A stretch of DNA of 64,000 nucleotides. Origin: an uncultured Dehalococcoidia bacterium. GTDB lineage: Bacteria > Chloroflexota > Dehalococcoidia > Lucifugimonadales > Australimonadaceae. The translations under genes and the position numbers were made by a program. The notes beneath the pieces were generated by a model that did not search any database, was not told the DNA's origin, and was given only the letters and a program-made list of their open reading frames with translations. Below, in pieces: positions 46,209 through 47,923 of this stretch; position 1 is the stretch's first letter, and every line of letters begins with the position of its first letter. The stretch covers positions 1,339,504-1,403,503 of the forward strand of contig OY282355.1 of assembly GCA_958295525.1 (NCBI GenBank), given 5' to 3'.

Positions 46209-47093
46209 ATGGAGATTCCTCTCGCAATCGGGCGCGCCCCCGCTTGGGCGTCGGCCAGCGGCGGCGCCGCGCTCTACGCGGGCGATATGCTGCGCGTTCT
46301 CGCGGAGATGCCGGAGGCGTCGGTGGATTGCGTATGGACGGACCCGCCGTACAAGTTGTCCAACGGCGGCGTCACCTGCGTCGCGGGGCGCATGGTCAGC
46401 GTGGACAAGGGAGAGTGGGACAAGAGCGCCGGCTTGGAACTCGACCATCAGTTCAATTTGGACTGGATCGCCGCCTGCCGCCGCGTGCTCAGGCCGGCGG
46501 GCACGATTTGGGTGTCCGGCACGCTGCACCTCTACCCCAGCGTCGGGATGGCGCTGCTGCAAAACGGCTTCCGCCTGCTCAATGACATCGTCTGGGAGAA
46601 GCCCAATCCGCCTCCGAACCTGGGCCGCCGAACGTTCACGCACTCCACCGAAGTCGTGCTGTGGGCGAGCAAGGCGCAGAAGGGAGAGCCGCACAGGTAC
46701 ACGTTCAACTACGACGCGATGCGGCGCGAGAACGGCGATAAGCAGATGAAAACCGTCTGGCGGGTCGCCGCGCCCGGCCACGACGAGAAACGCTTGGGCA
46801 AGCATCCTACGCAGAAGCCGGTCGCGCTGATTGCGCGCTGCATCCGCGCGAGCACTCACGCGGGAGACGTCGTGCTCGACCCATTCGCGGGCTCGGGCAG
46901 CGCAGGCGTCGCCGCGCTGCGGGAAGGCCGCCGGTTCATCGGCGTCGAGGCGGACGCGAAGTTTGTCGAGACCGCCCGTCTGCGCCTCGAAGATGCCGCG
47001 CTTTCTTACCCCCCCCCCCCCCCCCCCCCCCCCCCCCCCGATCTTTCCCGTCGTGGCGCGGCGCAGGGCTCATACCGGCGGGCGCGTGGCTAG
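46209..47093 (+). CDS. N6-adenine DNA methyltransferase, DpnA (M2.DpnII)-like, probable GATC specificity
   Basis: 294 aa, beta class: WTDPPYKLSNGG at residues 43-54 and LDPFAGSGSAGVAAL near 225. Between them SVDKGEWDKS, AGTIWVSGTLH, NDIVWEKPNPPPNLGRRTFTHSTE and GKHPTQKP follow the DpnA-type GATC enzymes closely, from memory of that family. The last 25 codons cross a run of 31 C (47009-47039), encoding ten prolines after the catalytic domain. The stop is 2 nt before the endonuclease ATG. Its promoter has three GATC sites. Confidence 0.85.
   Translation: MEIPLAIGRAPAWASASGGAALYAGDMLRVLAEMPEASVDCVWTDPPYKLSNGGVTCVAGRMVSVDKGEWDKSAGLELDHQFNLDWIAACRRVLRPAGTIWVSGTLHLYPSVGMALLQNGFRLLNDIVWEKPNPPPNLGRRTFTHSTEVVLWASKAQKGEPHRYTFNYDAMRRENGDKQMKTVWRVAAPGHDEKRLGKHPTQKPVALIARCIRASTHAGDVVLDPFAGSGSAGVAALREGRRFIGVEADAKFVETARLRLEDAALSYPPPPPPPPPPDLSRRGAAQGSYRRARG
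47009..47039 (+). repeat. 31-bp poly-C tract at the methyltransferase-endonuclease junction
   Basis: An uninterrupted C run inside the 3' end of the methyltransferase gene. At 31 C the frame stops at 47093. One C more gives a frame with no stop before the endonuclease ATG and in phase with it, producing a fusion. One C less moves the stop to a TAA that overlaps the endonuclease start. Long homopolymers are prone to sequencing and assembly error, so the exact length is uncertain. Confidence 0.85.
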
Positions 47094-47095
47094 CC

Positions 47096-47923
47096 ATGGA
47101 TAAGGGCATAGCGCTGGGGAAACTGCAGGCTTTGGTGGGGCGCGACCTCCGCCAAGTCGCCGAAGAGCATGGCGTAACCGTTTGGGACGGCGGAAAGATG
47201 AACAAGGGCTGGGCAGGCCACGCGGTGGAGCGTTACTTGGGGCTTCCGCTCAATTCGTCGCAGAACCCGAACCTGGGCTCGTGGGAACTGAAGGTCGTGC
47301 CGCTCACCGTGTCGCCGGACGGCGCTTGCGCCGTGAAGGAGACGATGGCCATCACGATGCTCGACCCCAAAGAAGTTTGGGCCAAACCCTTCGAGGAGAG
47401 CCACCTGTTCACGAAACTTCGCAAGATCATCGCCGTGGCGCGGACGCGGGAGGACGCGGCGGAGTCGCGCTCCATCTGCAAGAGCGTTCACGCTTTCGAC
47501 TTGGAGGAGACCGCTCTCTACGCGCAGGTCGCGGACGACTACGAAACTATCCGCCGCGTCGTGAGAACGGACGGCTTTGACGCGCTCACGGGGGGACTCG
47601 GCGTGTACGTGCAACCGCGAACGAAAGGCCCGGGGCGCGGCAGCGTGTCCCGCGCCTTCTACGCGCGAAAGGAGTTCGTCGAGTACATCGCAGGCTTGAA
47701 GGCCAGCCCGCGCTTGGCCAGCCGACTCGCCTCTTCCGATTGTCCGCTGCACGCCGGGCACGAGAACGCCGCCGCGCGCCAACCGCTGGACGAGCGCATG
47801 GCGCGTTTGGCGCGCAATCAATCGGGAGCGGGCAGGCACAAGTGCCCTTACTGCGCCTACGAGCAAGGCTACCGGCAGGCGATAGACGACATCTTGGCGT
47901 CGGCTTCCGAACGGCGGGGATGA
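47096..47923 (+). CDS. MutH/Sau3AI-like restriction endonuclease partner
   Basis: 275 aa. KGWAGHAVERYLGLPL followed by GSWELKVVPL (E64, K66) is the MutH/Sau3AI-type core, and a later TKGPGRGSVSRAFYARK segment fits the DNA-contact loop. Sau3AI and MutH cut at GATC, matching the adjacent methyltransferase. The Asp expected shortly before ELK is absent: the segment reads QNPNLGSWELK, and the nearest Asp is residue 31. The C-terminus has CPLHAGH and HKCPYC, a possible zinc site. Its ATG lies 2 nt after the methyltransferase stop, so translation is coupled. Confidence 0.78.
   Translation: MDKGIALGKLQALVGRDLRQVAEEHGVTVWDGGKMNKGWAGHAVERYLGLPLNSSQNPNLGSWELKVVPLTVSPDGACAVKETMAITMLDPKEVWAKPFEESHLFTKLRKIIAVARTREDAAESRSICKSVHAFDLEETALYAQVADDYETIRRVVRTDGFDALTGGLGVYVQPRTKGPGRGSVSRAFYARKEFVEYIAGLKASPRLASRLASSDCPLHAGHENAAARQPLDERMARLARNQSGAGRHKCPYCAYEQGYRQAIDDILASASERRG

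Follow-up and report, generated by a model that had tools for sequence, protein, structure and literature searches.

We propose that a methyltransferase gene (M) and an endonuclease gene (R) of an uncultured Dehalococcoidia bacterium form a Type II restriction-modification pair in which C-terminal phase variation of M governs R, a reading to which we assign a probability of roughly 70%. Both genes lie in a window of 64,000 nucleotides (the whole stretch of DNA that was analysed, in whose positions coordinates are given here), and a tract of 31 consecutive C sits inside the 3' end of M, as the earlier note had reported. The features concerned are as follows:

46160..46208, + strand: conserved block before M, possibly a methylation-controlled promoter or operator
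46209..47093, + strand: M, N6-adenine DNA methyltransferase of the CcrM/DpnA type, 294 aa at 31 C (PF01555 and the CcrM and DpnA structures)
47009..47039, + strand: tract of 31 C, candidate slippage site, proline codons in every frame
47040..47095, + strand: spacer from the tract to the R start, 56 nt, all three frames open to at most 8 nt from R
47096..47923, + strand: R, Sau3AI/MutH-type endonuclease, 275 aa, with a C-terminal Cys/His module (PF02976, NCBIfam Sau3AI, structure model)
47711..47920, + strand: Cys/His module of R, residues about 215-258 (CPxHAG...GRHKCPYCAY)
47937..48815, - strand: convergent ORF, PLD-type nuclease with a DpnI C-terminal (Dam-replacing) HTH domain (PF13091, PF17726)

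The tract is the longest homopolymer of the window, where the next is 8 G, and no longer C or G run was found in the 2.51 Mb genome, where it is followed by runs of 23 C and 16 G; 31 C is the assembled length, and exact counts for runs of 31 bases are unreliable in assemblies. We rebuilt the M frame in silico at tract lengths of 24-36 C. At 31 C (likewise 28 and 34), M ends at a TAG at 47091-47093, 2 nt 5' of the R ATG (47096); at 32 C (29, 35), M and R join in phase in a stop-free polypeptide of 571 aa (570, 572); and at 30 C (27, 33), M runs on to a TAA that begins 5 nt beyond the A of the R ATG. The first two outcomes are those that the earlier note had predicted. It had placed the third stop across the R start and counted 57 nt between tract and ATG; the TAA is there, but inside R, and the spacer measures 56 nt. 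The three frames thus give M different C-termini at the 3' end of its ORF, as in C-terminal phase variation, and a single M and R polypeptide, as in Type IIC and IIG enzymes, requires 32 or 29 C rather than the assembled 31. Loss of mismatch repair was considered as the cause of the run and rejected, because MutS and MutL genes are present in the genome and their absence therefore does not explain it.

M matches PF01555 over residues 39-256 (E 3e-53), and its closest solved structure is CcrM (E 3e-57), followed by DpnA (E 3e-29); the earlier label 'DpnA-like' named the right kind of enzyme, but DpnA is only the second-best match. The last residue of the catalytic domain is 256 and the tract begins in codon 267, so that the domain is complete in all frames. 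Because the tract lies 3' of this complete core, M should retain its activity, and methylation should persist, at every tract length; the methyltransferase itself would not be toggled as it is in a phasevarion. R matches PF02976 (E 5e-10) and NCBIfam Sau3AI (E 9e-16), and a structure model built with 23 relatives (mean pLDDT 82) finds Sau3AI and MutH (4pxg, 2aor) as its best matches. R shares with these enzymes the fold and the core ExK motif, and the motif PNxGSWELK, which is almost invariant across 35 relatives, is intact in R. It differs from them in carrying N at the position that we take to hold the usual acidic residue (N in 34 of the 35 relatives). The second domain of Sau3AI is also absent, and the Cys/His module is R's own; a Pfam search with this module alone returned no family. 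Among the fetched MutH-type R genes the module is found in four tract loci only (the window, L002, L053, and L058), and elsewhere it either stands alone as a small ORF (L004, L135) or is attached to HNH (L005). M and R are separate genes side by side, as in a Type II restriction-modification system, and more than 30 relatives have the same M-R pair.

We then compared the tract in related loci. A scan of 84,980 species genomes (one genome per species) yielded 80 M loci (603 kb), five of which carry a C run at the 3' end of M (L029, 14 C; L030, 11; L053, 8; L058, 11; L072, 14), and dozens of M relatives have no C tract. A sixth locus, L002, was found through its relative of R (another genus, 66%) and has 16 C just 5' of R; its contig extends only 25 nt upstream of the run, which leaves the M gene outside the contig. 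L029 (identical to L009) holds an M relative from the same genus (75%), followed by 14 C and then a different endonuclease. Across the window and these six loci the tract lengths are 31, 16, 14, 14, 11, 11, and 8 C; the place is kept and the length varies between species. The earlier note had named an assembly artefact, or one constant length across relatives, as what would speak against slippage, and the relatives show neither. The hosts of the tract loci belong to Chloroflexota, Gammaproteobacteria, and Verrucomicrobiota (L072 is verrucomicrobial). In the 80 loci, the stretch from -60 to +100 nt around the point where the M match ends contains five runs of at least 8 C or G against 0.26 expected (P 8e-6), and four runs of at least 11 against 0.02 expected (P 9e-9), where the expected counts were derived from the same 80 loci.

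The protein encoded 3' of the tract is of three kinds: a MutH/Sau3AI-type endonuclease in the window, L002, L053, and L058; a PDDEXK_11 protein of 140 aa in L029 and L030; and, in L072, a protein of about 190 aa that matches PDDEXK_11 weakly. A tree of 83 M proteins places five tract carriers in one clade of eight (support 100/99), whose other three members (L031, L135, and L136, the last with M and R as adjacent genes) have no tract, and L072 lies far off. Given the best-supported branches, the tract trait must have changed at least twice, so a single ancestral run is no explanation. Viral contigs yielded close relatives of M and four of R, all lacking a C run at the border; a search of plasmids gave no close R; and searches with R and R2 through 393 genomes of the class gave no further tract loci.

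To describe what a change in length does at each locus, we recorded the first base of the M stop relative to the A of the R ATG for the assembled length and its neighbours (for L002, the frame was assumed from likeness to the M tail):

Window: 30 C, +5; 31 C, -5; 32 C, fused
L002: 15 C, -29; 16 C, -3; 17 C, -34
L029: 13 C, -6; 14 C, +413; 15 C, +91
L030: 10 C, -6; 11 C, +125; 12 C, +178
L053: 7 C, -6; 8 C, +98; 9 C, +154
L058: 10 C, +92; 11 C, +67; 12 C, -6
L072: 13 C, -107; 14 C, fused; 15 C, -103

Six of the seven loci have a length class in which the M stop falls 0-3 nt short of the R start. The remaining classes of L029, L030, L053, and L058 run past the R start by 67-413 nt in another frame. 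As assembled, these four loci are in an uncoupled class, the window and L002 are coupled, and L072 is fused. Spacers open in three frames were found in five of the seven loci (combined P 2e-4 by dinucleotide shuffling, in a test picked post hoc); for the window spacer taken by itself, P is 0.31 by the same shuffling, so it gives no evidence on open frames.

Several observations together favour phase variation: the tract keeps its place while its lengths differ, it is enriched at the M end, and the stops are set against the R start; the trait changed at least twice on the M tree and precedes three kinds of endonuclease; the R motif is intact, the spacers are open (combined P as above), and the M core is complete before the tract. 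Support is weaker at L053, whose run has only 8 C. We suggest that slippage during replication would alter the length of the tract and so move the end of M translation relative to the R start, a displacement that the translations show. In the 31-C class, the stop 2 nt before the R ATG would suit termination-reinitiation, and R would be coupled to M; in the 30-C class, M would end just inside R; and in the 32-C class, M and R would be made as one polypeptide. In the overrunning classes of L029, L030, L053, and L058, the ribosomes of M would be carried far into R in another frame. All cells would then be methylated, and the amount or form of the endonuclease would differ between cells, which could spread the risk between phage defence on the one hand and DNA uptake or self-damage on the other, never with R on and M off. 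In the window, translation of R may occur in each of the three states, so the effect there could be small or graded. The earlier proposal that slippage acts on the endonuclease and spares the methyltransferase core is thus supported at the level of sequence, by a tract that is fixed in place and variable among relatives.

The earlier note also laid emphasis on a fused enzyme, and this leads to the strongest alternative, in which fusion is the purpose of the tract and slippage switches the locus back and forth from a two-protein Type II system to a single methylating-and-cutting polypeptide with a polyproline linker. The uninterrupted protein predicted for the window at 32 or 29 C is what this alternative expects. 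In the assembly of L072, M and R are fused at 14 C, whereas six tract-free relatives of its endonuclease are separate ORFs, and at L022, an unrelated M-HNH pair, 14 C would link M to the HNH domain. However, fusion is reachable only in these three loci. In five of the six other tract loci, a stop in the R phase lies 0 or 3 nt before the R ATG, which makes a clean fusion impossible there and rules out a conserved fusion as the main function. We therefore consider this alternative unlikely, and the fused enzyme is one possible state of the window, not a conserved outcome.

An alternative that we regard as improbable is that RNA polymerase or the ribosome slips on the tract and each cell makes a fixed mixture of three products, with no heritable switching. 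A run of 31 bases could be slippery for any polymerase, and a constant R:M ratio would follow; against this, the tract lengths among relatives differ enough to change the frame class, and known systems of this kind use DNA slippage. It is more improbable still that the tract is a neutral microsatellite in a tolerant gene end with no effect on R. Several related genomes do have many long C runs, and the M end tolerates changes, but this explanation is at odds with the strong enrichment at the M end, with the presence of the tract in distant phyla, and with stop positions tightly tied to the R start; moreover, genome G004 has few runs of at least 12 (six twelve-base matches in 2.8 Mb), and the border tract is one of them. 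Finally, an assembly artefact can be dismissed: runs of this length do assemble poorly, and the L002 contig breaks off near its run, but assemblies made independently in different projects put a run at the same position, which already refutes the idea that the run itself is an artefact.

Returning to phase variation of the M gene, we note that its parts have precedents. In C-terminal phase variation in Neisseria, a homopolymer near the 3' end lets a gene finish in either of two C-termini, and the third frame fuses it to the next gene (NGK_1211/NGK_1212, PMC5320596; kdtA, PMC5953494). Those cases concern membrane or LPS genes, whereas here a methyltransferase and an endonuclease are involved, in unrelated hosts, and the setting of the stop against the start of the next gene is a feature of the window that the Neisseria cases do not share. 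Phase-variable Type IIG enzymes (Cj0031, PMC4889913; HP1353-1354 and JHP1272, PMC3936762) likewise have a poly-G/C run in a restriction-modification gene, and in JHP1272 a second run alters the C-terminus (PMC3936762); they hold both activities in one protein and switch methylation or specificity, whereas in the window M is predicted to stay on and R to be switched. HpyAII (PMC7494987), a Type IIS endonuclease, is the only phase-variable member of its Type II system, as proposed here for R, but its A runs are within its own gene, and the run of the window lies in the upstream methyltransferase gene. Type I and III phasevarions (PMC12707154) also control a restriction-modification system by slipped-strand mispairing, but there methylation and a regulon switch, whereas constant methylation is expected in the window. 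In the open-licence literature that we searched, we found no tract of this kind described where a Type II methyltransferase gene meets its endonuclease gene.

Most known phase-variable restriction systems come from pathogens, and what they switch is mostly methylation. In these uncultured environmental bacteria, restriction alone should vary while methylation stays constant, a combination that would avoid the hazard of self-killing and would separate the switching of defence from epigenetic switching. C-terminal phase variation would here be positioned so that it affects the gene that follows, and the locus offers a natural test of the reversible fusion and separation of a methyltransferase and an endonuclease. 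More tentatively, and at somewhat less than even odds, we speculate that the tract could be a recurrent modular Type II switch, gained more than once and combined with various endonucleases across phyla, which would keep protection constant while the cutter is coupled, uncoupled, or fused, passing between a two-protein and a one-protein form.

The M-R pair most likely acts on GATC, a target suggested by the fold of R, by the 51% identity of M to the second methyltransferase of plasmid pSRQ700 (which we take to be the carrier of the GATC system LlaDCHI), and by ORFs beside relatives of R2 that appear Dam-type when read by eye rather than by profile. In addition, the block before M contains TTGACA (46172-46177) and three GATC sites (46188, 46193, and 46200) within the inverted repeat CTGATC-N8-GATCAG, one of only three clusters of three GATC in the window. 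The 46 nt 5' of the M ATG are nearly identical in L029, where the flanks have diverged, and this near-identity of a block with TTGACA and three GATC sites hints at control by methylation. A sigma-70 scan of the block found no consensus pair. GATC clusters upstream of M were rejected as a family-wide trait (9 against 3.3 expected in the 80 loci) and are kept for the window and L029 only. The convergent PLD/DpnI-HTH ORF, which also lies beside R in L002, is possibly a third member of the system; next to a GATC methyltransferase, a protein that reads methylated GATC would be a danger, which makes the target of this ORF puzzling.

Other long runs were seen in this and related genomes. The run of L022 (L022:2099-2111, genome G002 of the same genus) has 13 C between an unrelated methyltransferase and an HNH domain, which 14 C would join, and it gives weaker support because G002 has many C runs. 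In the genome of the window, 16 G (L131:2823-2838, about 2232322-2232337) lie inside a membrane ORF of 769 aa with a PMT_2 mannosyltransferase domain, which is in frame at the assembled length and is likely a second phase-variable gene. The run of 23 C (L126:2549-2571, about 28548 in the same genome) lies between a coiled-coil-like ORF and a repeat-rich stretch, with no restriction gene seen nearby. In a related genome, 24 C (L169:1501-1524) occupy the leader of a large surface-type protein.
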